Of a DNA stretch of 64,000 nucleotides, positions 1-11,635 are shown piece by piece. The DNA is from Mycobacterium sp. MS1601. GTDB taxonomy: Bacteria > Actinomycetota > Actinomycetes > Mycobacteriales > Mycobacteriaceae. Numbering within the stretch: the stretch's first letter is position 1; each line of letters starts with the position of its first letter. The notes under the pieces are model-generated. The model ran no database searches and was not told the DNA's origin. It worked only from the letters and a program-made list of their open reading frames with translations. The stretch spans positions 6,076,001 to 6,140,000 of the forward strand of contig NZ_CP019420.1 of assembly GCF_001984215.1 (NCBI RefSeq). The letters run 5' to 3'. A program made the position numbers and the translations under genes.

Positions 1-7
1 CGCCCGC

Positions 8-1459
8 TCACGCGCGCACACTCGGGATGGCCGGCACCGCTACGGCTCGGTGGCCGTCGGCCGGCGATCGGTGCAGGAAACGCCCGCTGCCAGGCTGCAG
101 CGCCGTTTCCGACACCGCGCCGGACAGCTGGTCCACCACCATGTCACCATCGGCCATCACCATGACCGCCCGACCGGTGAGCTTCGCGCCGGCGTACGCC
201 GAATGGTCCATGTTGTCGTGCAGATCGTCCACGCAGACCTCCCATTCTCGTTGTGGATCCCACAGCACCAGATCGGCATCTCCACCGACGAACACACCGC
301 CCTTGGTAGCCGCCACACCCATCACCTCGGCCGGCCGGGTGCAGCACAGATCCACCACCTGCGGCAGCGTGAGCCGACCGGTGGTCAACGCCTCGGACAC
401 CATCAGGGGCATCCGGAGTTCCACTCCGGCAATGCCATTGGCACATTCGGTGAACACCGTGGCATCACCGCTGGGCAGTTTGCCGTCGTCGAGTCGATAC
501 GGCGCGTGGTCAGAGGCCACCACGTCGATGGCCCCCGAGGTGAGCGCCTGCCACAGCGCCTCACGGTCGGCGCCGTCGCGCAGCGGCGGGCTGCACATCG
601 ACTGCACGGCGAGTTCCAGCGGCCCGTGCAGCCGGTCCTCTTCGAGAAACAAGTAGTGCGGGCAGGTTTCGGTGATCAGCCGCACTCCGCGCGACCGCGC
701 CTCGCTCACCACGTCCAGGGCGCGGGCAGACGACAGGTGCACCAGATACACCGGCATATCCAGATATTCGGCCAGATGCGCCACCTCGCTGACTCCGGCG
801 GCCTCGGCGTTGCGGCTGTGGGCCAGCAGATGCGCGTCGGGCCGCACCCGGCCCGACGACACCGCCTGGTTGGTTGCGTAGCCGATCATGCCGTGATGCT
901 CGGCGTGCACCATCACCGTCATACCCAGATCCCGTGCGCAGGCCAGCGTCGTGACCAACTCCTTGTCGGCCAGCCGCAGCCGGTCGTAGGTCAGGAACAC
1001 CTTGAGCGAGACGATTCCCTCGGCAACCGCCAGCCGCAGCCCGGCGGTGGCATCCTCTCCGCTGAAATCGGTCACGATCAGATGCACCCCGACGCTGGTC
1101 GCCGCCCGCTCCGCCGAGACCAAGCCACGGCGCACTGCGGTGGCCACCGCTTCACCTCGGGCCTGCACCGAAAACGCCATCACCGTCGTGGTACCGCCGT
1201 GTGCTGCCGACCGGGTGCCGGTGTGGAAGTCGTCCGCGGTGCGAAAACCCTTGGCCGACATCTGGTCCAGATGGGTGTGGACATCGACGCCGCCGGGCAG
1301 CACCAGCAGCCCCTCGGCGTCGACGACCCTGGTCGCCGGACCGTCCAGCCTGGCGGCCACCGCGGTGACCTTGCCGTCGGAGACACCCACGTCGGCCACC
1401 GTGGTGCCGCTGCGGTCCACCACCGTGCCGCCGCGGATCAGGATGTCGAAATGAGTCAT
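8..1459 (-). CDS. Dihydropyrimidinase / D-hydantoinase-family amidohydrolase
   Basis: A 483-residue cyclic amidohydrolase that should hydrolyse a cyclic amide or ureide ring such as a hydantoin or dihydropyrimidine. The binuclear metal site is intact: H61 and H63 in DVHTHLD, carboxylated lysine K153 in SLKVFLTY, H185 in VMVHAEHHG, H241 in YLVHLSS, and the catalytic aspartate D317 in VASDHAP. The length is usual for the family. The ATG start lies in an ATGA overlap with the stop of the aldolase gene upstream, so it is translationally coupled. It is the last gene of the operon visible here; transcription may continue past the window edge. The substrate is inferred: a racemase and a nitrilase-type enzyme in the same operon favour a hydantoin or ureide over allantoin. 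Confidence 0.88.
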   Translation of the reverse strand: MTHFDILIRGGTVVDRSGTTVADVGVSDGKVTAVAARLDGPATRVVDAEGLLVLPGGVDVHTHLDQMSAKGFRTADDFHTGTRSAAHGGTTTVMAFSVQARGEAVATAVRRGLVSAERAATSVGVHLIVTDFSGEDATAGLRLAVAEGIVSLKVFLTYDRLRLADKELVTTLACARDLGMTVMVHAEHHGMIGYATNQAVSSGRVRPDAHLLAHSRNAEAAGVSEVAHLAEYLDMPVYLVHLSSARALDVVSEARSRGVRLITETCPHYLFLEEDRLHGPLELAVQSMCSPPLRDGADREALWQALTSGAIDVVASDHAPYRLDDGKLPSGDATVFTECANGIAGVELRMPLMVSEALTTGRLTLPQVVDLCCTRPAEVMGVAATKGGVFVGGDADLVLWDPQREWEVCVDDLHDNMDHSAYAGAKLTGRAVMVMADGDMVVDQLSGAVSETALQPGSGRFLHRSPADGHRAVAVPAIPSVRA

Positions 1460-2376
1460 GGCCGCACTCCGGCCGGCTGGGGGGCGCGGGCCATCAGCCG
1501 GTCCAGCTCCCGATGATCCATGGCGCTCAGCGGTACGGCGGGGTGACGGCTGACGGCGGTGGTGATGGCACCGCGGCGACGCAGAATCTCCTTGCGCACA
1601 CCGATTCCGCCACGCAGTTCGTGCCGATTCAGCGGTAGGTAGCTGTCGAAGAGATCCTCGGCGGCGTCACGCTGCCCCTGGCCGTGCCGGCGGCACACCT
1701 CGGCCAGCACGTCAGGGTAGGCGAATCCGGTCATCGCGCCGTCGGCGCCACGGTCGAGTTCCTGGGGCAGCGCGATGCCGTTGTTGCCCGCCAGGATGGT
1801 CACCCGGCGCAGCCCGTCGGCTTCGGCCGCGCGAATGGCGCTGAGCTTGCCCAGACCCGGAACGTCCTCGTGCTTGAGCATGAGCACCGACGGGCAGTCG
1901 GTCACGATCCGGCGCCAGGCCGCCAGGGTCAGCGGCACGTCACTGGACTGCGGGAAATCCTGGTAGCACACCGGGATGTCGGGCCCCAGCGCCCTGGTCA
2001 CCGCGCCGAAGTAGGCAACCAGAGCATCGTCGCCGCGCAGACCTGTCAGCGGTTGCACCAGTACCCCCGCCGCACCCAGGCCGGCGGCGACGCGCGCGGT
2101 CTCGGTGAGCCGCTCCAACGACGAATCCGAAGCGCCGACCAGAAACGGCACCCGGCCGTCGAGTGCCTCGGCGGCGGCCGCGAGCACCTGGCGGGATTCC
2201 GCGGCGGTCAGCCGGTTCGCCTCCCCCATGACCCCGAGCAGGGCCACCCCGGCGACCCCGGCGCCGACATAGAACTCCATGAGTGTGCCGACAGACTCGG
2301 CATCGACCTCACCGCCGTCGGTCAACGGGGTGACCGCAACTGCGGTCAGCCCGGCCGTGGGCAGTTCGCCGGTCAT
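1456..2376 (-). CDS. DapA-like (dihydrodipicolinate synthase / N-acetylneuraminate lyase family) aldolase
   Basis: A 306-residue class I aldolase of the DapA/NanA superfamily, a TIM barrel that forms a Schiff base with a 2-oxo acid. The Schiff-base lysine is in SVLMLKHEDVPG (about residue 167) and the conserved tyrosine in VCYQDFPQ. The substrate loop reads LLGVMGEANRLT where DapA has a GTTGES-like motif, so the threonine that anchors the pyruvate carboxylate is not conserved and true DapA activity is unlikely. It overlaps both neighbours by ATGA junctions. In this operon it probably performs a retro-aldol cleavage or a hydration/deamination step late in the pathway. The fold is clear; the reaction is not. 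Confidence 0.82.
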   Translation of the reverse strand: MTGELPTAGLTAVAVTPLTDGGEVDAESVGTLMEFYVGAGVAGVALLGVMGEANRLTAAESRQVLAAAAEALDGRVPFLVGASDSSLERLTETARVAAGLGAAGVLVQPLTGLRGDDALVAYFGAVTRALGPDIPVCYQDFPQSSDVPLTLAAWRRIVTDCPSVLMLKHEDVPGLGKLSAIRAAEADGLRRVTILAGNNGIALPQELDRGADGAMTGFAYPDVLAEVCRRHGQGQRDAAEDLFDSYLPLNRHELRGGIGVRKEILRRRGAITTAVSRHPAVPLSAMDHRELDRLMARAPQPAGVRP

Positions 2377-3041
2377 CTGATCACCCCTTCGGCCAGCACC
2401 GCGTCCTGCAGAGCGGCCAGCGCCGCACCGACAGCGGCGCGGCAGGGATCAACAACGGGCACACCCAGTTCGGCTTCCAGCCCGGCGCGCATGTGGGTCA
2501 GGCCCGCGCATCCGAGGATCACCACGTCGGCGTCGCACTCGTCGACCAGGCGGTGAGCCACCGCCCGCACGTCGGCCGCAGCCTGCGCGGTGTGCAACTC
2601 CAGCACACCGTGACCGACCGCGATGTCGGCAACCACCCTGGACGCCAGACCCAAGCGCTCCCAATATCTCTGGTGGCGTGGAACCGATGCGGCCACGCTG
2701 GACACGATGCCCACCCGCCGACCCCGGCCCAGGGCCACCAGCATTGCCGATTCCGCGATACCGAACACCGGCCGGCCCAGCCGCTGGCGCATCAGGTCTA
2801 TCCCGGGGTCGGAGAAGCAGGCCACCACATAGGCGTCCGCTTCCCGGGCGGTCACCAAGGCGAGCATCGGATCCACCGCCGCGGCCCCGTCGGCGTCGGA
2901 CTGAATGGCCGCCGGGCCCGCACCGGAGGTCACGACCTCCACGTCGAACCCCGCGGGACGCCACAGATCGCGCACCGCGTCGGCGATCTGATCGGTCATG
3001 GCCTCGGTGGAGTTCGGATTCACCACCAGGACTGTGGGCAC
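2373..3041 (-). CDS. Asp/Glu/hydantoin racemase family protein
   Basis: A 222-residue member of the Asp/Glu/hydantoin racemase superfamily. The N-terminus VLVVNPNSTEAMT is the family signature. Two catalytic cysteine positions are visible, in VVACFSDPGID (about residue 76) and VILGCAGLTHM (about residue 178), as expected for cofactor-independent two-base racemases or for arylmalonate decarboxylases and maleate isomerases of the same fold. It starts with GTG behind AAGAGG, the only gene in the operon with its own clear ribosome binding site, after a 47-base gap. It overlaps the aldolase gene by four bases. Beside a hydantoinase, the simplest reading is a hydantoin racemase, but the sequence alone does not separate racemase from isomerase. 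Confidence 0.82.
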   Translation of the reverse strand: MPTVLVVNPNSTEAMTDQIADAVRDLWRPAGFDVEVVTSGAGPAAIQSDADGAAAVDPMLALVTAREADAYVVACFSDPGIDLMRQRLGRPVFGIAESAMLVALGRGRRVGIVSSVAASVPRHQRYWERLGLASRVVADIAVGHGVLELHTAQAAADVRAVAHRLVDECDADVVILGCAGLTHMRAGLEAELGVPVVDPCRAAVGAALAALQDAVLAEGVIR

Positions 3042-3088
3042 GGAAGCACCTCTTTCTTCGGTATGAAATGACGAGGGATCTCGACGGT

Positions 3089-3997
3089 TCAGGCGGTGAC
3101 GATCTCGTCGCGGACCGGGACGGCCTTGAGGATGTCGATACCTGCCCGCACCCAGGCCGCCGACGGTTGGTCCAGCGCCAGCACGGTCAGCCGGGAGAAG
3201 CCGAGCTCGGCCAGTCGAGCCACGCCGTCGACCACGTCGTCGGGGGTGCCCGCGAGTTCCAGCGGGCGCGAACGGTGCCGGCTGGTGCCGCCCAGTCGCA
3301 GCGTGACGCGGGCCCCGAAGCAGATCGGGTGTCCCGCCGCCGATGCCGACCCGCGTGCGCTGTCGATGTAGTTGTGCAGCCGGTCGGCATCGAGCACCAG
3401 TGCCTCATCGGCGTCGTCTGGTGACAGGATCTCCAGTCGGTCGGCGTAGGTACCGGCCGCGGCTATCAGCCGCGGCCGCGACGCACCGACGACGATGGGG
3501 ATGGTGCGTACCGTCGGTTGCCATGCGACGTCGACGTGCGCGCGGTAGAACTCACCGTCGACGTGCACCCGCCCGTGATCGGTGAACATCTGCCGGCAGA
3601 TTGCCAGGCTCTCCAGCAGGCGGGCCACCCGCGTGCCCGGGGTGCCGAGATCGATGCCGACGGCCTGGTGTTCTGGGACGTACCAGCCCGCCCCCAAACC
3701 CAGTTCGGCGCGACCACCGCTGAGCCGGTCCAGCGTGGCAATGGCCTGGGCCACCTCGGTGGGATGGCGACGGGTGACGTCGAGCATGGTCTGAGTGAGC
3801 ACAATCCGGTGTGTCACCGCGGCGGCGGCACCGAGGGCCACCAGCGGGTGATCGAAGGTGTTGACGGGCCCGTCGTTGATGGCGCAGAAAAGGTGGTCGA
3901 GCACCCGCACGCCGCTGAAGCCCGCTGCCTCGGCGGCGCGCGCCTCGCCGACGACGTCGGCACCGAGAGCTGGTCCGTACACCTGCATCGTGGTCAT
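3089..3997 (-). CDS. LLM-class (luciferase-like) flavin-dependent oxidoreductase
   Basis: A 302-residue luciferase-like TIM barrel using FMN or F420. Family features include the strand-helix start EARAAEAAGFSGVRVLDHLF, the segment HRIVLTQTMLDVTRRHPTEVAQ, and the hallmark LSGGRAELGLGAGWYVPEHQ around residues 92-110, followed by PIVVGASRPRLIAAAGTYAD in the cofactor region. It may be a two-component monooxygenase or, as is common in mycobacteria, F420-dependent. No flavin reductase is encoded in the window. The start ATG overlaps the stop of the permease gene (ATGA). In the operon it could attack the heterocycle oxidatively, as the LLM enzyme RutA does in uracil catabolism, but that is an analogy only. 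Confidence 0.8.
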   Translation of the reverse strand: MTTMQVYGPALGADVVGEARAAEAAGFSGVRVLDHLFCAINDGPVNTFDHPLVALGAAAAVTHRIVLTQTMLDVTRRHPTEVAQAIATLDRLSGGRAELGLGAGWYVPEHQAVGIDLGTPGTRVARLLESLAICRQMFTDHGRVHVDGEFYRAHVDVAWQPTVRTIPIVVGASRPRLIAAAGTYADRLEILSPDDADEALVLDADRLHNYIDSARGSASAAGHPICFGARVTLRLGGTSRHRSRPLELAGTPDDVVDGVARLAELGFSRLTVLALDQPSAAWVRAGIDILKAVPVRDEIVTA

Positions 3998-4839
3998 TGC
4001 AGATCCAGCTGTGATTCGTGCCAGCGCAGCAGGATGTGCTCAGCAGCGGCCGCCACCGCGAACGCCGCGATGCCCAGCAGCGAGGAACAGATGATGGCGA
4101 CGAACAGGGTGCCGGTGTTCAGCGAGGCCTGTGCCGTCATCAGGACGTACCCCAAACCCTTTGTCGAGGAGATGAATTCACCGATGATGGCGCCGATGAC
4201 CGCGGCGGGCACCGCGATCTTCAGCGCACCGAGCAGCTGCGGCAGAGCAAACCAGACCTTCACCCGCCAGAAGACGAATCCCCTGGGCGCGTTGATGACT
4301 CGCAACAGGTCGAGCACATCGCGGTCCGATGACCGCAGTCCGACGGTCGTCATGATGACAATCGGGAAGAACGACGTGAGAAACGCCGTCACCATCTTGG
4401 GCAGCGCGTCGTAGCCGAACCACACGGTCAGCATCGGTGCGATCGCGATGGTCGGGGTCACTTGCAGCAGCACCAGGTACGGCGTCATGATCCGGTCCAG
4501 CAACCGCCACTGCGCCAGCATCAGGGCCAGCCCCACCCCGATCACCAGGGCGCCCAGCAATCCGGCCAGCGCCTCGTATCCGGTCACCGCGGTGTGATAG
4601 GCGAAATCGCCTGGCCGCGCTGCGAAACTACTCCAGATCAACGACGGCGACGGCACGACGAACCGGGGGATCTCGAAGACCCGGCAGGCCAGTTCCCACA
4701 GCCCGATCACGATCACCAACACCACCGTCGGCAGCACCCACTTACCGCGCACCAGACGTGTCAGGGGTCCGGCCGCCGGTGGCGACGCAGGGCTCAGCGA
4801 CACCCTCGAGCCGGTGGCCTCCACAGGTGTGGTGGTCAT
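3994..4839 (-). CDS. ABC transporter permease of the SsuC/TauC (NitT/TauT) type
   Basis: A 281-residue inner-membrane permease with about six hydrophobic helices, the first near residues 34-52 after a basic, proline-rich N-terminal tail. The cytoplasmic EAA-like loop is visible around AVIGAIIGEFISSTKGLGYVL near the C-terminus, typical of the nitrate/sulfonate/taurine/pyrimidine-precursor importers. It overlaps its ATPase gene by ATGA. No periplasmic substrate-binding protein of this system is encoded inside the window; it may lie beyond position 1. The transporter presumably imports the compound degraded by this operon. Confidence 0.88.
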   Translation of the reverse strand: MTTTPVEATGSRVSLSPASPPAAGPLTRLVRGKWVLPTVVLVIVIGLWELACRVFEIPRFVVPSPSLIWSSFAARPGDFAYHTAVTGYEALAGLLGALVIGVGLALMLAQWRLLDRIMTPYLVLLQVTPTIAIAPMLTVWFGYDALPKMVTAFLTSFFPIVIMTTVGLRSSDRDVLDLLRVINAPRGFVFWRVKVWFALPQLLGALKIAVPAAVIGAIIGEFISSTKGLGYVLMTAQASLNTGTLFVAIICSSLLGIAAFAVAAAAEHILLRWHESQLDLQ

Positions 4840-5642
4840 GACGCCACCTCGCCGAGACGCGCCGAGGTGTCGTGATGGTGGTACAGCAGGTCACGCACCC
4901 GGTTCTCCAGCGCCAGGAACTCGCCCGTGCGCCGGATCTCGGGGCCACGGTCCCGCGGCAGAGTGACCGGGATGGCGCCCCTGACCCTGGTGGGCCGATC
5001 GTCCATCACCACCACGCGGTCGGCCAGATAGACCGCCTCCTCCAGGGAGTGCGTGACGAACAGCACGGTGCAGGCGTTGCGCCGCCAGATCTCCAGCAGC
5101 ACCTGGTTCAGCCGCTCGCGGGTGATCTCGTCGAGCGCGCCGAAGGGCTCGTCCATCAGCAGCAGCGACGGCGCCAGGATCAGCGACCGCGCGATGGCCG
5201 CACGCTGCTGCATGCCGCCGGAGCATTCCCGCGGCAGCGCGTCGGCATACTCGCCCAGCCCCACCAGCTCGAGCATGTCTTCCGGGCTGAACAGCGGGGT
5301 GCGGGTCTTGTCGATCTGCAGGGGCACCCGCACGTTGTCCAGTAGCGAGCGCCAGGGCAGCAGCGCCGGTCGCTGGAACATGAAAGCGATCTCCCGGGCT
5401 CGGCGCGCCTGCTCCACCGTGCGACTGCCGATCCGCAACTCACCGGTGTCGTGGCCCTGGGGATGCAGGCCGGCCAGCGCCCGCAGCAGCGTCGACTTCC
5501 CACATCCGGAGGGCCCGATCAGGGCCACGAACTCCCCTGGTGCCGTATCCAGGCACAGGTTGTCGATCACGTGCCGACGCCCGCCCGCCGACGTCGAGTA
5601 CCAGGCGCTGAAACCGTCGACCGCGACGCCGCCGTCCCTCAT
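4836..5642 (-). CDS. ABC transporter ATP-binding protein of the SsuB/TauB (NitT/TauT) type
   Basis: A 268-residue ATPase that powers the adjacent permease. Walker A is GPSGCGKST at about residues 43-51, the Q-loop lies in FMFQRPALLPW, the signature is CSGGMQQRAAIARSL, Walker B is LLLMDEPFGALDE, and the H-loop is VTHSLEEAVYLADRV. All catalytic elements are present. Length and the FMFQ..LLPW segment match the aliphatic sulfonate/taurine/nitrate importer ATPases. ATGA overlaps on both sides tie it to the permease and the nitrilase-family gene. Confidence 0.9.
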   Translation of the reverse strand: MRDGGVAVDGFSAWYSTSAGGRRHVIDNLCLDTAPGEFVALIGPSGCGKSTLLRALAGLHPQGHDTGELRIGSRTVEQARRAREIAFMFQRPALLPWRSLLDNVRVPLQIDKTRTPLFSPEDMLELVGLGEYADALPRECSGGMQQRAAIARSLILAPSLLLMDEPFGALDEITRERLNQVLLEIWRRNACTVLFVTHSLEEAVYLADRVVVMDDRPTRVRGAIPVTLPRDRGPEIRRTGEFLALENRVRDLLYHHHDTSARLGEVAS

Positions 5643-6688
5643 CGCGCACCTCCACTGGCCGCGGTGGCCTCCAGACGGGTGCGGGCCACTGCGGCGGGTG
5701 CCTGGATCTGGCTGTATTCCCGCAGCGGCAGGTCCAGGAACGCGTTCGGCGGGTAGAGGCTGCCCTGGTAGGTCGCGGCGATGGTTTCCATCCGCAGCCG
5801 CAGCAACGGGTTGGCCATCGACAGGTCAGCCCTCAGCGCCCGCACGGACTCCACGTCGATCTCGGCCTTCAGGATCGCCGGGCGGTGCGCGTCCTCGGCG
5901 GCCAGGGCGACACCGGTGGGTGCGATGATCTGCGAGCCGCTGCCCACCTCATCGGTGCTGGGTCGGTTGTCGACCTGCCCGCCGTGCAGGGATCCGGAGA
6001 CATTGGCCGAGACGACGTACAACCCGTTGCCGGACGCCGCGACGATCTTGGCCGCATCCTGGCCGGGCGTACGAGTTTCCCAGGTGGGGTGAAGCAGTAT
6101 CTCGGCGCCGCGCAAGGCCACGGTGCGCACGGCCTCGGGTACCGCGATCTCGCCGCACGGCACCATGGCGATGCGTCCCAGCGGAGTGTCGACCACCGGC
6201 CACACCTGGTCGAGACCGCCGTAGCGGGCCAGGTAGTCGTCCCAGACATCGTGCGGAGAGCACCACATGGCGGTGTGCACGCGCCGGTAGCGCAGCACCA
6301 CCTCACCGTCGGGATCGATGAGCCAGCTGGTGTTGAAGAACCGGTCCGGCCACTCCGGGTCGCTCTCGAACTGGTTTCCGCCGATGTAGACGCCGAGTTC
6401 GCGTGCCAGCTCGGCGAAATGCGCGGTGATCGATCCCGGCACCGGGGCGCAGCCCTTCTCGAGCCACTGCGCGACGGTGCCGCCGTTGGGTTGGCCGCTG
6501 AAGGCATATTCGGGCAGCAGGATCAGTGCCGGCCGCGGGTCGGAGGCCACGGCCTCCCGCACGGCCGCAGTCGCGGTGGCGATGTTGGCGGCGATGACGG
6601 ACGGCACGTCGGCTACCGGGTGCGGCCACAGGATCTCGGTGGGCATCTGGATGGCCGCGGCGTACCACGGCTGGATGGGTTGTGTCAC
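5639..6688 (-). CDS. Nitrilase-superfamily carbon-nitrogen hydrolase with Lys-to-Arg at the catalytic lysine position
   Basis: A 349-residue carbon-nitrogen hydrolase of the nitrilase/amidase/N-carbamoylase superfamily. The catalytic glutamate is E60 in LILLPEYAFSG and the nucleophilic cysteine is C178 in MVPCGEIAVPEAVR. The catalytic lysine normally found in a YRK(V/I) motif is arginine here: VLRYRRVHTAMW, R136. The alignment is unambiguous because both flanking motifs fit. The residue may still supply positive charge, or the enzyme may use an altered mechanism. In a hydantoin-type pathway this gene would be the N-carbamoyl-amino-acid hydrolase; other nitriles or amides are possible. It overlaps the HicB-like and ABC ATPase genes by ATGA. 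Confidence 0.82.
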   Translation of the reverse strand: MTQPIQPWYAAAIQMPTEILWPHPVADVPSVIAANIATATAAVREAVASDPRPALILLPEYAFSGQPNGGTVAQWLEKGCAPVPGSITAHFAELARELGVYIGGNQFESDPEWPDRFFNTSWLIDPDGEVVLRYRRVHTAMWCSPHDVWDDYLARYGGLDQVWPVVDTPLGRIAMVPCGEIAVPEAVRTVALRGAEILLHPTWETRTPGQDAAKIVAASGNGLYVVSANVSGSLHGGQVDNRPSTDEVGSGSQIIAPTGVALAAEDAHRPAILKAEIDVESVRALRADLSMANPLLRLRMETIAATYQGSLYPPNAFLDLPLREYSQIQAPAAVARTRLEATAASGGAR

Positions 6689-7023
6689 AAACTTGCTCCG
6701 AAGTCGTTGTGGTGGGCCAGGGTTCGGGCGACCTCCGCGCGCTGCCAGGGCACAAACGAGGGCACGGAGGGACGCGGGGACGGGGGCTGCTCACCGGCGT
6801 CGAGCAGTGCCAACGTCAGTTCCACCCGCACCGTTTCGAGCCTGTCGAGCGCGGCGGTGAGCAGCTCGGAGGTGGTTTCGCAGCCGGGGAACTCCGGGTA
6901 GGCGGCGCGGAAGCGCCACACCCCGTCGCGGCCTCGCACCGGCTCCACGGTCAACAGCAGTGGCACCGCCAGGTGCGCGGCCGCCTGGTCCACCAATGCG
7001 CTGTCCAGCTGTCCGGATGTCAT
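6685..7023 (-). CDS. Small HicB-like domain protein inside the oxygenase operon
   Basis: A 112-residue protein, started here at the ATG overlapping the stop of the upstream Rieske gene (ATGA); longer upstream reading would run into that gene. Residues 20-75 fit the HicB/UPF0150 RNase-H-like antitoxin pattern: VPLLLTVEP, then WRFRAAYPEFPGCETTSEL with the PGC.T turn, a helix of the LLTAALDRLETVRVEL type, then the proline-rich GEQPPSPRPS exit. No HicA toxin is adjacent and no DNA-binding domain follows. The C-terminal 30 residues (FVPWQRAEVARTLAHHNDF) are unlike HicB. In this position it may be a small accessory or assembly subunit for the oxygenases rather than an antitoxin. Function unknown. 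Confidence 0.7.
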   Translation of the reverse strand: MTSGQLDSALVDQAAAHLAVPLLLTVEPVRGRDGVWRFRAAYPEFPGCETTSELLTAALDRLETVRVELTLALLDAGEQPPSPRPSVPSFVPWQRAEVARTLAHHNDFGASL

Positions 7024-8339
7024 TTCCGCTCCCCGGCTGGCACAGCAGCGGCCTGCTTGACGCGCATCGCCGCGGTGGCCGCCTCGTGCCAGTCCTGGCC
7101 GCCGCCGACCTCGATGAACACCGACGGCAGGTCGTAGCCCAGTCCGGTTGCGCCGGGCCAGCTTCCGGCACCGACGCCGCGCTCGACATCGTGCGCCATG
7201 GCCAGCAGTGTGCGTCGGGTGGCGATCACCGCGGCGTCGGTGGGTACCAGCCGCTCGCGACTGCGGTCGTAGGCCGGACCCATCGACGCGGTGATGATGT
7301 CGTCCTGTTCCTGATTGCCCGCCACACCGGACCAGTGCGTGCCGCACTGCTGGGCGTGCCTGTCGAATTCGTAGTTGTTGGCCGGATTACGACGAGCCAG
7401 GTACTGCCCCGGCAGCAGTTCGGCGTAGATGCCCGCGACACCGCGGCGGAAGCGCTCGCGTTGCTCGGCGGTCAGGTCCCCCCGCACAGTCCAGGTGAAG
7501 CCGTACACCCAGCACGATTCGTCGTCGATGGGCACCCAGGCGTGGATGCCCAGCAGACCTTCGGGATTGTCGGCGGGCACCACGGTGTAGAAGGGGGCCA
7601 GCCAGTGGTTGATCCGCACATAGTCGTTGCCGGTGGGCAGATGCCGGATGGCGGCGATGGACAACCCCGCCTCGCAGCGTTCGACGCAGAAGTCCGGATC
7701 GGTGTGTTCGATCATCGCCCGGGTGTGCGGCGTTCCGGCGGCAAGCAGGTCTTCGCGGTGCAGATAGGCCACATGGGCGGAGTCGATATCGGCCTCCAGC
7801 GCCTGCAGCCAGTGGCAGGAGTGCAGACGCTTGCTGACGAACCGGGCGCTGTCGGGCACCTGCGCCCAGCCCAGATCAGGCAGGGACGGGGGCGTGCCCA
7901 CACCGAGGTAGGCGAACACCAGTCCGCCCACCTCGGCGGTGGGATACGACGGTTGCCTGACCCGCTCGTCGGACACCAGCGCTGGGCAGGTCGGGTTCTG
8001 TACGCAGTTGCCTGACGTATCAAAAGTCCAACCGTGGTAAACACATTGGATGCCGGTGTGATCCACCCGTCCCGTCCACAGCGATGCACCGCGGTGGATG
8101 CAGTGCTCGGCCAGCAGACCGACTGTGCCGTCGGCGCCTCGGAACGCGATCAGGTCTTCGCCGAGCAGGCGCACCCGCACCGGCGCCGACGGCGAGTCGG
8201 CCACCTCCTCGCTGAGCAGCGCCGGCACCCAGTAGTGGCGCAGCGCATCGCCCAGCGCGGTGCCCGCTCCCGTCCGGGACAACACCTGGTGCTCGGCAGG
8301 GGTGAATCGCACCACCAGATCTTTTGTCGCAGAGGTCAT
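7020..8339 (-). CDS. Rieske non-heme iron oxygenase, alpha subunit (second copy)
   Basis: A 439-residue aromatic ring-hydroxylating or demethylating oxygenase alpha subunit. The Rieske [2Fe-2S] ligands are C80 and H82 (HCIHRGA) and C99 and H102 (CVYHGW). The mononuclear iron site is D186..H189....H194 in DIDSAHVAYLHRED. The length and the absence of an adjacent beta subunit match the phthalate 4,5-dioxygenase / monooxygenase-demethylase branch of alpha-only oxygenases. It is distantly similar along its length to the gene immediately upstream, with matching segments such as LRHYWVPALLSEE and VRLLGEDLIAF. It overlaps both neighbours by ATGA. No ferredoxin or reductase is encoded nearby, so electrons must come from elsewhere. 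Confidence 0.9.
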   Translation of the reverse strand: MTSATKDLVVRFTPAEHQVLSRTGAGTALGDALRHYWVPALLSEEVADSPSAPVRVRLLGEDLIAFRGADGTVGLLAEHCIHRGASLWTGRVDHTGIQCVYHGWTFDTSGNCVQNPTCPALVSDERVRQPSYPTAEVGGLVFAYLGVGTPPSLPDLGWAQVPDSARFVSKRLHSCHWLQALEADIDSAHVAYLHREDLLAAGTPHTRAMIEHTDPDFCVERCEAGLSIAAIRHLPTGNDYVRINHWLAPFYTVVPADNPEGLLGIHAWVPIDDESCWVYGFTWTVRGDLTAEQRERFRRGVAGIYAELLPGQYLARRNPANNYEFDRHAQQCGTHWSGVAGNQEQDDIITASMGPAYDRSRERLVPTDAAVIATRRTLLAMAHDVERGVGAGSWPGATGLGYDLPSVFIEVGGGQDWHEAATAAMRVKQAAAVPAGERK

Positions 8340-9709
8340 GCCGGTGCCTCAGAGGGTTGACGCGTCTGCTTGCGGTAGAGCTCGGAGCTGATCTCCTCCC
8401 ACGATGCGGTGCGCGGAAGCACAGTGTTGGGGATGGCCGTCACCGGGGGGAAGGTGTCCTGCGCAGGTGGCTCCGCCCCGGTTTCGGCAAGTGCAATCGC
8501 ACTGTTGAGCAGCACCCGCCGGACCATCGCCACCGCTGCGTCGGAGGACACCAGGCGTTCGGTGGAGCGGTCGAGGATCGGGCCCATTCCCTCGGTACAC
8601 GCGCGGTCCTGCGCCCAGACGCCCACGATGCCGGCGAAGTAGTCGTAGGGATTGTCGTGGTCGAGCCCATATTCGTTGTCGCGCCCCAACTTCGGCACCC
8701 AGCGTGACTCCGGGCTGCCGTCGGGTTCCCGGTACCCACCCACCGGGACGTGCGCGCCGTGCCCGTCGAGCAGCTCTGCACGCTCATCGTCGTCCAGCGG
8801 GCGGTCGACGTAGTAGGAGACCCGCCAGACGATGGTGGTGCCGTCGTCCATCGGGACCCAGATGTTGCACTGTGCGGGCAGTTCGCAGTCCCCGGGCGGG
8901 CCTGCGTAGAACGGCAGGATGAACTGGTTGAAACGGTAGTAGTGCGTGGACGGGCCGGCGTCGCGGCGCGCTCCGGAGAACATGCCGTACGGGGTGGACA
9001 TGACGGTCAGCTTCGGCCACGGTTCCCGATGCCAGTACAGCCGTTCGAGTTTCGAGGTGAGGATGCCGTCTTCGGGTTCTGGTGCATCCTCGGGCGTCGC
9101 GTCGGGGTCACGGGAGATGAACTCGCGGTAGGCGGTCACCGACCCGTGCAGGAAGGAGATGTGCGACGGGTCGAAATCACCTTCGAGGACCTGCGCCCAG
9201 TTGGCGTCGATGCGCTGTTTGGTGATGAGCCGGTGGCTTTCGGGAATAGCGACGAAATCCAGCGGAGGCAAGTCCTCCGGCATCAGCTCCGGTGCACCCA
9301 TGAAGGTCCACACGATGCCATTGAGTTCGCGGGTGGGATACCACCGGATGTGCACCCGGTCGGTGAACTGGGTCTCCATCGGAACGTTGGGCATCTGCAT
9401 GCAGACGCCTTCGGTGTTGAACTTCCAGCCGTGGTAGATGCAGGTCAGTCCGCCATCTTCATTGCGGCCGTAGTACAGCGGGGCCTTGCGGTGCGGGCAC
9501 AACGCCTCGAGGATGCCCACCTTGCCCTCGCTGTCACGGAAGGCCACCAGGTCTTCGCCCAGCAGGCGGAGCCGAATGGGGCGACCATTGGGCAACAACT
9601 CCTCGGCCAGCACGGCCGGGATCCAATACCGACGCATGAGCTCGCCCATCGGCTTGCCGGCCGACACCTCGGTCAGAATTTTGTTGCGTTCGGCGCTGAG
9701 CATGCGCAC
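8336..9709 (-). CDS. Rieske non-heme iron oxygenase, alpha subunit (first gene of the operon)
   Basis: A 457-residue alpha subunit of the phthalate-dioxygenase type. Rieske ligands are C71 and H73 (CPHRKA) and C90 and H93 (CIYHGWKF). The catalytic iron ligands lie in GDFDPSHISFLHGS (bridging D180, H183, H188). The ATG is preceded by AGGAG nine bases upstream. It is the promoter-proximal gene of a ten-gene transcription unit and sits directly downstream of a strong interrupted palindrome. The protein presumably starts degradation by hydroxylation or O/N-demethylation. The second oxygenase gene overlaps its end, so the two may act in sequence on one substrate or on alternative substrates. Confidence 0.92.
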   Translation of the reverse strand: MRMLSAERNKILTEVSAGKPMGELMRRYWIPAVLAEELLPNGRPIRLRLLGEDLVAFRDSEGKVGILEALCPHRKAPLYYGRNEDGGLTCIYHGWKFNTEGVCMQMPNVPMETQFTDRVHIRWYPTRELNGIVWTFMGAPELMPEDLPPLDFVAIPESHRLITKQRIDANWAQVLEGDFDPSHISFLHGSVTAYREFISRDPDATPEDAPEPEDGILTSKLERLYWHREPWPKLTVMSTPYGMFSGARRDAGPSTHYYRFNQFILPFYAGPPGDCELPAQCNIWVPMDDGTTIVWRVSYYVDRPLDDDERAELLDGHGAHVPVGGYREPDGSPESRWVPKLGRDNEYGLDHDNPYDYFAGIVGVWAQDRACTEGMGPILDRSTERLVSSDAAVAMVRRVLLNSAIALAETGAEPPAQDTFPPVTAIPNTVLPRTASWEEISSELYRKQTRQPSEAPA

Positions 9710-9722
9710 CCACTCCTAGCGT

Positions 9723-9753
9723 TCAGTATGCTGAATCAGATTCTTGATACTGA
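9723..9753. promoter_or_regulatory. 31-base interrupted palindrome, candidate operator of the Rieske operon
   Basis: Outer arms TCAGTAT (9723-9729) and ATACTGA (9747-9753), and an inner perfect palindrome GAATC-A-GATTC (9733-9743), are both centred on 9738. That gives 12 of 15 base pairs symmetric. It lies 14 bases upstream of the first Rieske gene and overlaps the expected promoter. It has the size and symmetry of a TetR- or GntR-family operator. No regulator gene for this operon is visible in the window. Confidence 0.6.
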
Positions 9754-9853
9754 CCTAAGAGTGCGCGTGTTTTACTGCCGATCCGGGACGACGTCGTTAC
9801 GTCCGCATTAAGTCGCCCTCGGCCGGGCGGTCGGTCACTGCCGGTGTGTGCGC

Positions 9854-11635
9854 CTAGTCCGCCACTCGCCCAGCGGTTTTCGGCTTGGCGTCGATGCCGG
9901 ATTCCTTACGCTGCTGCGGCGTGATGGGCGCCGGAGCGTCGGTCAGCGGGTCGACGCCGCCGCCGGACTTGGGGAAGGCGATCACTTCGCGGATCGAATC
10001 AACCCCGGCCAGCAGGGCCACGATGCGGTCCCAGCCGAAGGCGATCCCGCCATGCGGCGGCGCGCCGTAGGTAAAGGCGTCCAACAGGAATCCGAACTTC
10101 TCCTGCGCCTCGTCGTGATCGATGCCCATCATCGCGAACACCCGCTCCTGGACGTCGCGCCGGTGGATGCGGATCGATCCCCCGCCGATCTCGTTGCCGT
10201 TGCACACGATGTCGTAGGCGTTGGACAGCGCCGCACCCGGGTCGGTGTCGAAAGTGGCCTCGGACTCGGGAGTAGGTGAGGTGAAGGCGTGGTGCATGGC
10301 TGTCCAGGCACCGGACCCCACCGCGACATCGCCGGAGGCGGTGGCGTCGTCGGCCGACTCGAACATCGGCCAGTCCACCACCCAGGTGAAGGCCCAGACG
10401 TCCGGGTCGATCAGGTCCAGGCGCTTGGCGATCTCGATGCGGGTGGCCCCCAGCAGCGCGCGGGCACTCTTGGCCGCACCGGCCGCGAAGAACACACAGT
10501 CGCCCGGTGCGGCACCTACGTGCGCGGCCAGACCGTCACGTTCGGCCTCGGACAGGTTCTTGGCGACGGGTCCGCCGAGAGTGCCGTCCTCACCAACCAG
10601 CACATAGGCCAAGCCTTTGTGCCCGCGTTGCTTGGCGAATTCCTGCCAACCGTCGAGGGTGCGACGCGGCTGCGACGCCCCGCCCGGCATGACGACAGCG
10701 CCGACGTAGGGCGCCTGGAACACCCGGAACGGGGTGTCGGCGAAGTAGTCGGTGCACTCGACGAGTTCGACACCGAAGCGCAGGTCCGGCTTGTCGGAGC
10801 CGAACCGACTCATGGCTTCGGCATAGCTGATCCGCGGCAGCGGCAAAGGCAGGTCGTAGCCGACCAGCGACCACAGCGCCTTGAGGATCTGCTCCGACAC
10901 CGCAATCACGTCGTCGGCGTCGACGAAGCTCATCTCCATGTCCAGCTGGGTGAACTCCGGCTGCCGGTCGGCGCGGAAATCCTCGTCGCGGTAACACCGC
11001 GCGATTTGGTAGTAACGCTCCATGCCCGCCACCATCAACAGCTGCTTGAACAGCTGCGGGCTCTGCGGCAGGGCGTAGAACGAGCCCGGCTGCAGCCGCG
11101 CCGGAACCAGGAAGTCGCGGGCACCCTCCGGGGTGGACCGGGTGAGCGTCGGCGTCTCGATCTCCACAAAATCGTGATCGGACAGCACCGAGCGGGCTGC
11201 GGCGTTGACCTTCGAGCGCAGACGCAGCGCGTTACCCGGCCCCTCCCGGCGCAGGTCGAGGTATCGGTACTTCAGCCGCGCCTCTTCGCCGGCGGTCTCG
11301 TCGAGCTGGAAGGGTAGCGGTGCGCTCTCGCTCAGCACGGTCAGCGTGGTGGCGTTGACCTCGATCTCGCCGGTGGCGATCTCGGTATTGGCGTTGCCCT
11401 CGGGCCGCACCTCGACCACGCCTTCCACCAACACGCAGAACTCGGCGCGCAGCCGATGCGCGGCTTCGAGAACCGCGGCATCTCGGAACACCACCTGCGA
11501 CACCCCGGACGAGTCGCGCAGGTCGATGAAGATGACGCCGCCGTGGTCGCGGCGCCGCGCCACCCACCCGGCCAACGTCACCGTCTGGCCTGCGTCGGAG
11601 GCCCGCAACGAACCGGCGGTATGACTGCGCAGCAC
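9854..11635 (-). CDS. aspS: Aspartyl-tRNA synthetase (probably non-discriminating Asp/Asn type)
   Basis: A 593-residue class IIb synthetase that charges tRNA with aspartate. An N-terminal OB-fold anticodon domain occupies residues 1-110 ([33 protein letters not shown]). The class II motifs follow: motif 2 in [22 protein letters not shown] and motif 3 in [13 protein letters not shown], with the GAD insertion domain between them (KGLAYVLV around residue 340). In mycobacteria this enzyme also makes Asp-tRNA(Asn) for GatCAB, which is inferred from family knowledge. It starts with GTG behind GAGGAG. The gene is the start of the conserved mycobacterial backbone in this window. Confidence 0.96.

Follow-up and report, generated by a model that had tools for sequence, protein, structure and literature searches.

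A co-oriented gene block joining Rieske oxygenases to a hydantoinase-type set in Mycobacterium sp. MS1601, a candidate islet for N-heterocycle catabolism

Layout, operator-like site and borders of the block

We analysed a window of 64,000 nucleotides from Mycobacterium sp. MS1601 (contig NZ_CP019420.1, positions 6076001-6140000 of a 6.83-Mb genome), at whose left end lies a block of genes joining two Rieske oxygenases and an importer to enzymes of the hydantoinase type. Ten intact minus-strand genes fill positions 8-9709. Every one of them runs from a start codon to its only stop, at the end, and at eight of the nine junctions neighbouring genes overlap by exactly 4 bp, the exception being a 47-bp gap between the LLM and racemase genes. 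A sequence-only reading had described these ten minus-strand genes, nearly all with 4-bp overlaps, as an operon. The ten genes stand as described, but the unit extends further, with six more genes on the same strand beyond the left window edge, in adjoining chromosomal sequence (L024, whose coordinates minus 14000 give window coordinates). The whole block comprises 16 co-oriented genes over about 16.9 kb.

Read along the minus strand, the block begins with two Rieske oxygenase alpha subunits. Rieske 1, of the phthalate-dioxygenase type (8336..9709, PF00355 and PF19301), is 457 aa long when counted from its GTG, and the ATG at 9703 is likely its true start; Rieske 2 (7020..8339) has 439 aa and the domains PF00355 and LigXa_C PF19301. 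These are followed by a small protein of 112 aa with a probable HicB-like fold and no Pfam or NCBIfam model match (6685..7023), a nitrilase-superfamily protein with Arg at the catalytic Lys position (5639..6688, PF00795), the ATPase (4836..5642, PF00005) and permease (3994..4839, PF00528) of an ABC importer, and an LLM-class oxidoreductase that is perhaps F420-dependent (3089..3997, PF00296). The window part closes with a protein of the Asp/Glu/hydantoin racemase family carrying both Cys motifs (2373..3041, PF01177), a DapA-superfamily lyase (1456..2376, PF00701) and a cyclic amidohydrolase of the D-hydantoinase/dihydropyrimidinase type (8..1459, PF01979, with TIGR02033 above cut-off). Across the window edge, also on the minus strand, lie a short-chain dehydrogenase/reductase (SDR; -765..11, of which 1..11 are in the window) whose start overlaps the hydantoinase gene by 4 bp, an IclR-type regulator after a 17-bp gap (-1547..-783) and an NMT1/THI5-type binding protein after a 154-bp gap (-2766..-1702, PF09084). 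The last three genes encode a 2-oxoglutarate (2OG)-Fe(II) oxygenase (-3718..about -2786) and the FAD subunit (-4547..-3720) and fused 2Fe-2S/Mo subunit (-7173..-4540) of a xanthine dehydrogenase (XDH)-type enzyme. The families first assigned to the window genes (two Rieske subunits, importer, LLM, nitrilase, racemase, DapA-like, dihydropyrimidinase) agree with Pfam and NCBIfam. A tRNA-Ile called by ARAGORN at 3410-3494 (minus strand) falls within the LLM gene, in the same orientation, and is probably a false positive.

A 17-bp operator-like palindrome, ATTCAGCATA[A/C]TGAACG, occurs in two genomic copies, one in each promoter region of the block. Copy 1 (ATTCAGCATACTGAACG, 9720..9736, minus strand) lies in the leader of Rieske 1, and copy 2 (ATTCAGCATAATGAACG, -1662..-1646, or L024 12338-12354) in the 154-bp gap ahead of the binding-protein gene. 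A genome-wide search allowing one free base and up to 1 mismatch returned exactly these 2 sites, with 0 for a reversed-pattern control and about 0.02 expected in random sequence of equal composition; the pattern had been derived from its two sites before the search, and the strength of the result therefore lies in its exclusiveness. Since the palindrome stands at both promoter regions and nowhere else, we read the outer and inner genes as one regulon with a predicted shared operator. The IclR protein of the block may be what binds it.

The right border is formed by aspS (9854..11635, minus strand), a backbone gene outside the block, and the next gene to the left of the block encodes an F420H2-dependent quinone reductase-like protein (PF04075). 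We compared these borders with stretches of ~15 kb starting at aspS in 8 relatives, taken from the 25 further genomes in which aspS has a match. The reductase-like gene directly follows aspS in four of the eight (L164, L167, L168, L170) and stands one gene away in L166; it was not found near aspS in the other three (L163, L165, L169). Its adjacency to aspS in relatives makes it backbone, and we rejected it as a member of the block. When 13 block proteins (the set excluding the HicB-like, 2OG and XDH FAD proteins) were used as queries against the eight post-aspS stretches, no counterpart appeared except a 29% SDR in L168. Because the two border genes adjoin in half of these relatives and the queried block proteins have, that SDR aside, no counterpart there, we read the block as an acquired islet between aspS and the reductase-like gene, as its earlier placement outside the conserved backbone would predict. 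What follows aspS varies among the eight relatives (L163-L170), and insertions may occur there in variable form.

Sequence relationships of the enzymes and the importer

The amidohydrolase passes the NCBIfam D-hydantoinase model TIGR02033 with 410.6 bits (cut-off 393.25), does not reach the subfamily model PRK13404 (NF009941; 466.9 against 647), and matches 1nfg and other hydantoinases among solved structures. These scores support a hydantoinase-type ring opener, in accordance with the sequence-only reading. The racemase scores 185.2 bits against PF01177 (cut-off 31), and its motifs ACFSDPG and LGCAG, whose cysteines we take to be the catalytic ones, are kept in alignment with L029, L133 and L142. 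In the DapA-like protein the Lys of LKHED, presumably the Schiff-base Lys, is kept, and QDFP replaces the YNVP-type motif that we take to hold the Tyr of dihydrodipicolinate synthase (DHDPS). Gln stands at this position in all three aligned relatives as well, and the DHDPS model TIGR00674 gives 75.9 bits, short of its cut-off of 206.15. With the Lys kept and Gln in place of the Tyr, the protein is therefore better called a lyase of the superfamily than a DHDPS.

N-carbamoyl amino acid hydrolases of the nitrilase superfamily use a Glu-Lys-Cys triad. In alignments of the block's nitrilase-like protein Glu and Cys are present and the catalytic Lys is replaced by Arg, likewise in its L029 counterpart, and for that reason we do not call it a carbamoylase. 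Apart from this residue and the DHDPS Tyr, the active-site motifs of the block enzymes are intact. The decarbamoylation step first proposed for this enzyme is thereby weakened. A haloarchaeal relative on a Haladaptatus plasmid (L158 8851-9957) shares the SPHDVWD insertion and keeps the Lys, but Ala replaces the Cys; each of the 3 sequences of this branch that were compared has a change at one of the catalytic residues.

Rieske oxygenases bind their catalytic iron through a 2-His-1-Asp pattern. Both block subunits have these ligands together with the Rieske and LigXa_C domains, and so belong to the phthalate-dioxygenase type. The nearest solved chains are 7fhr, 9ina and 7fjl for Rieske 1 and 9ina for Rieske 2. 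PMC12445078 describes 9ina as the isophthalate dioxygenase of Comamonas testosteroni KF1 and names an Arg that anchors the substrate carboxylate (R234 in this enzyme, R244 in phthalate dioxygenase, here 7fjl) and a second anchor, H257. Counted along the alignments, the anchoring Arg is present in both block proteins (YVRIN in Rieske 2, YYRFN in Rieske 1); at the position of H257, Rieske 2 has His and Rieske 1 has Asn. All 31 aligned Rieske 2 sequences keep R242 and H266. Together, these residues suggest an acidic or polar, planar substrate. Unlike in those systems, no reductase gene was recognised beside the block pair.

The protein at 6685-7023 probably has the HicB fold, and no HicA gene adjoins it; Rieske 2 and the nitrilase-like gene flank it with 4-bp overlaps on both sides, and we rejected a toxin-antitoxin role. 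HicB-like proteins without a Pfam match also occur beside or near genes for phthalate-type Rieske enzymes (L037 11588-11911, L026 7161-7448, L029 5073-5360). A profile of the family at 1e-6 found 1 of 178 genomes of the class, the genome itself, and 0 plasmid matches.

Of the remaining oxidative enzymes, the LLM protein has TIGR03560 as its best NCBIfam model (130.7 bits, below the cut-off of 231.4), and the best NCBIfam score of the Mo subunit is to xanthine dehydrogenase XdhA (395 bits, below the cut-off of 780). This last score raises the question of a purine or pterin route, in which an XDH-like hydroxylase and Rieske N-demethylases would act first on a methylated purine, pterin or pyrimidine, with the hydantoinase and racemase serving as analogues of allantoinase and allantoin racemase. 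The racemase does match allantoin racemase 5lfd, one of its 5 PDB matches, NdmA and NdmB are among the Rieske structure matches, and one Comamonadaceae cassette (see below) stands beside an annotated PuuE allantoinase and a ureidoglycolate lyase. However, the NdmA and NdmB matches are N-terminal only and the block's Rieske proteins are of the LigXa_C type; the amidohydrolase fits D-hydantoinase better than allantoinase (255 bits against a cut-off of 358); the Mo subunit has 4-hydroxybenzoyl-CoA reductase, and not xanthine dehydrogenase, as its nearest solved chain; and none of the block proteins was recognised as a uricase, HIU hydrolase or OHCU decarboxylase. We regard this route as distinctly improbable.

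The ATPase and permease are closest to NCBIfam models of the Ssu/Tau/Ntr type. The binding protein is closest to the SsuA and NMT1 models, matches PF09084, and has ThiY (3ix1, E 7.8e-11) and THI5 as its nearest solved chains by sequence. Because its gene lies left of the window, the importer is complete only with the extended block, and these matches support the importer of NitT/TauT type first proposed, with a binding protein of NMT1/THI5 type.

These nearest chains are pyrimidine-precursor proteins, which would fit a further rival, in which a product of flavin breakdown would be opened at its pyrimidine ring, as the cyclic ureide. The lum cluster for lumichrome in Nocardioides simplex, as described in PMC12746152, likewise combines hydrolytic opening of the pyrimidine ring with a Rieske dioxygenase and an enzyme of the xanthine-oxidase type. 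The lum set has an alpha/beta Rieske enzyme with a ferredoxin and a reductase of its own, as well as a P450, a thiamin-dependent decarboxylase and a catechol dioxygenase, none of which was recognised among the 16 block proteins. Because the two sets share so few gene types, we consider a lumichrome or riboflavin route highly unlikely.

Conservation and rarity of the gene set

The closest relative of the block is a contig of 11,977 bp from an uncultured bacterium (L029, JAPPFW010000081.1; source genome G799). Nine of the ten window genes lie there in the same order, at 42-59% identity including the binding protein, which stands ahead of the ATPase. Identities are 59% for Rieske 1, 54% for Rieske 2, 54% for the HicB-like protein (over 71 aa), 50% for the nitrilase-like protein, 42% for the binding protein, 55% for the ATPase, 48% for the permease, 53% for the racemase and 58% for the DapA-like protein; the hydantoinase (50%) comes last and is cut by the contig end. 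Conservation of the exact gene set, put forward earlier as a check, is therefore found for all window genes except the LLM gene, which is missing there. The kept order, together with an operator-like site confined to the block, supports the idea of one catabolic unit.

L029 was the only core-carrying locus among the best 80 of 269 confirmed loci kept from an alignment-based scan of genome contigs with Rieske 2. The runner-up among these 80 had six matches at ≤42%, and besides Rieske genes only generic ABC, SDR and IclR genes. Homologs of Rieske 2 and of the racemase, respectively, were also found on contigs of equal size in three further cases: 56% and 61% at 1,928,156 bases (Nakamurella), 59% and 61% at 5,702 bases, and 53% and 51% at 153,496 bases. 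We take the two genes to share one contig in each.

The block is rare. When genome contigs were scanned with the single Rieske 2 sequence, no relative came up. A search with Rieske 2 at E 1e-3 matched a Rieske protein of some kind in 85 of 100 relatives, the best outside the genome itself at 39-42% identity. Under strict thresholds (1e-110, 1e-100 and 1e-95), Rieske 2 found the genome itself alone in 396 genomes of the genus and again in 394 of the class, and G799 alone in 247 genomes of the class of G799. The DapA-like protein at 1e-50 found 3 of 296 class genomes, its own included; the other two each have an SDR-DapA pair, to which L172 adds a generic ABC ATPase, and nothing else of the set. 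The SDR and DapA-like genes recur as an adjacent pair in both Actinomycetia and Proteobacteria (L142, L152-L154, L157, L172, L173), in two Actinomycetia without racemase or hydantoinase.

The hydrolytic part has a wider distribution. The racemase-DapA-hydantoinase trio occurs in the same order in L133 (56, 60 and 45%), with no Rieske genes. In the class of G799, 14 genomes have a racemase match, and 13 loci were opened besides L029; L133 alone has DapA and hydantoinase adjoining and L141 the hydantoinase, while the remaining 11 have neither adjoining (a 29% DapA lies ~7 kb off in L131). Plasmids of Sulfitobacter, Comamonas (Comamonadaceae), Martelella, Microvirga and Rhizobium carry racemase, DapA, SDR and a hydantoinase-type amidohydrolase; in Rhizobium SSA_523 (L152) the set, with a distant amidohydrolase, comes from BLAST of an unannotated record. 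Among the three plasmids opened by racemase similarity, the Sulfitobacter one (H2) has DapA and SDR and the other two (H1, H7) do not. Ten regions were opened by DapA similarity, eight of them annotated: four combine racemase and a hydantoinase-type amidohydrolase (H16, H18, H26, H32) and four lack them (H21, H31 at the record edge, H34, H38). The regions without annotation are L152 and L151; by BLAST, L151 has only DapA, with an SDR further off. Opening by hydantoinase similarity gave two regions with a racemase-type gene and no DapA (H58, H62) and the Sulfitobacter region again (H56), and the two regions opened by nitrilase similarity held nothing of the set.

Six proteobacterial plasmid cassettes (L142, L148, L149, L152, L153, L157) can be compared with the block directly. 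Their racemases are 39-46% and their DapA proteins 44-49% identical to those of the block, and five of six have an SDR at 28-38% (none in L148). Amidohydrolase identity is 42-43% in L148 and L149, 25-27% in L152, L153 and L157, and weaker in L142 (Sulfitobacter), which has a 40% hydA at a distance of about 10 kb. Since these identities are low in Martelella, Microvirga, Rhizobium and Sulfitobacter, what recurs in the module is a combination of families, not a set of close orthologs. Instead of the block's Rieske pair, five of the six have FAD-type oxidoreductases (L152 is unannotated), and their annotated importers are of amino-acid or peptide types, in contrast to the block's NMT1-type one. 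No function is assigned to these cassettes in their records.

This modularity could also mean that two functions merely lie side by side, an oxygenation operon for an aromatic acid or aryl ether (Rieske pair, importer, HicB-like protein) and an independent salvage cassette for hydantoins or N-carbamoyl amino acids (hydantoinase, racemase, DapA, SDR). Indeed, L133 has the hydrolytic set but no Rieske genes, Proteobacteria combine the set with FAD oxidoreductases and importers of amino-acid or peptide type, and 79 of the best 80 of the 269 phthalate-type Rieske loci lack it. However, the two parts are interleaved in the block, with the nitrilase gene between Rieske and importer genes and the LLM gene between importer and racemase, and 4-bp overlaps couple them. 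L029 preserves both parts in the same joint order and with comparable divergence, and the three further contigs that we take to carry both Rieske 2 and racemase homologs also argue against separate functions. For these reasons we think the side-by-side arrangement unlikely.

A predicted route for an N-heterocycle

Taken together, we read the block as a horizontally acquired, co-regulated catabolic islet of 16 genes for an N-heterocycle that is degraded via a cyclic ureide or imide, with a probability of roughly 0.6. The ABC importer with its NMT1/THI5-type binding protein would take up the N-heterocyclic compound, and the two Rieske oxygenases, possibly partnered by the HicB-like protein, would oxidize it together with the XDH-type hydroxylase, the 2OG-Fe(II) oxygenase and the LLM enzyme; the Rieske step may be either a demethylation or a dihydroxylation. 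The hydantoinase-type amidohydrolase would then open the ring of the cyclic ureide or imide, the racemase-family protein would set the stereochemistry, and the nitrilase-like protein would act on the open chain. Final steps would fall to the DapA-like lyase, which may carry out the aldol cleavage first proposed, and the SDR, probably with release of pyruvate.

Several observations weigh against this reading. The Arg at the catalytic Lys position of the nitrilase-like protein argues against a simple carbamoylase. No match to the LLM, SDR, IclR, 2OG oxygenase or XDH genes was found on the 12-kb L029 contig, and membership of these five gene types in the pathway therefore rests on strand, spacing and the palindrome; that palindrome pattern was drawn from its own two sites, a TTCA-N4-6-TGAA site was not found in L029, and positions 9600-9960 showed no sigma-70-like promoter. 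The 16 block proteins include no recognisable Rieske reductase or ferredoxin, the rest of the genome not having been searched for one. The same side of the balance holds the nearness of the Mo subunit to 4-hydroxybenzoyl-CoA reductase and the near absence of the hydrolytic trio from the 13 racemase loci outside L029.

A more specific version can be offered tentatively. It would be a hitherto undescribed route for the aerobic breakdown of a natural N-heteroaromatic compound of hydantoin, imidazole, purine or pterin-like type. In this route the two Rieske enzymes and a dedicated HicB-fold partner without toxin-antitoxin function feed a reusable hydantoinase-racemase-DapA-SDR module ending in pyruvate, on an islet with its own operator that is mobile between actinobacterial lineages.

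Among known systems, hydantoin-utilisation clusters share with the block a hydantoinase, a racemase-family protein with both Cys, a nitrilase-superfamily protein and an importer; one on a Variovorax plasmid has an annotated N-carbamoyl-D-amino-acid hydrolase, whereas the block's nitrilase-like protein lacks the catalytic Lys. To this common set the block adds two Rieske proteins, the HicB-like protein, the LLM, XDH-type and 2OG enzymes, the DapA-like lyase and the SDR. None of the papers listed by the literature searches, in which most subscription journals were not covered, has such a cluster in its title or abstract opening, and no homologous cluster with an assigned substrate, which would have contradicted the sequence-only reading, was found in the papers and records examined. 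The block is a variation on hydantoin-type catabolic clusters, in a combination that is new relative to the literature searched.

Two patterns within it have no function known to us: a set of racemase, DapA, SDR and amidohydrolase that recurs elsewhere, and a HicB-like protein encoded close to phthalate-type Rieske genes. Catabolic clusters whose substrate is unknown are direct handles on missing steps of N-heterocycle cycling, and with its clear borders, candidate operator and Nakamurella homologs, the substrate of this one should therefore be findable by screening.

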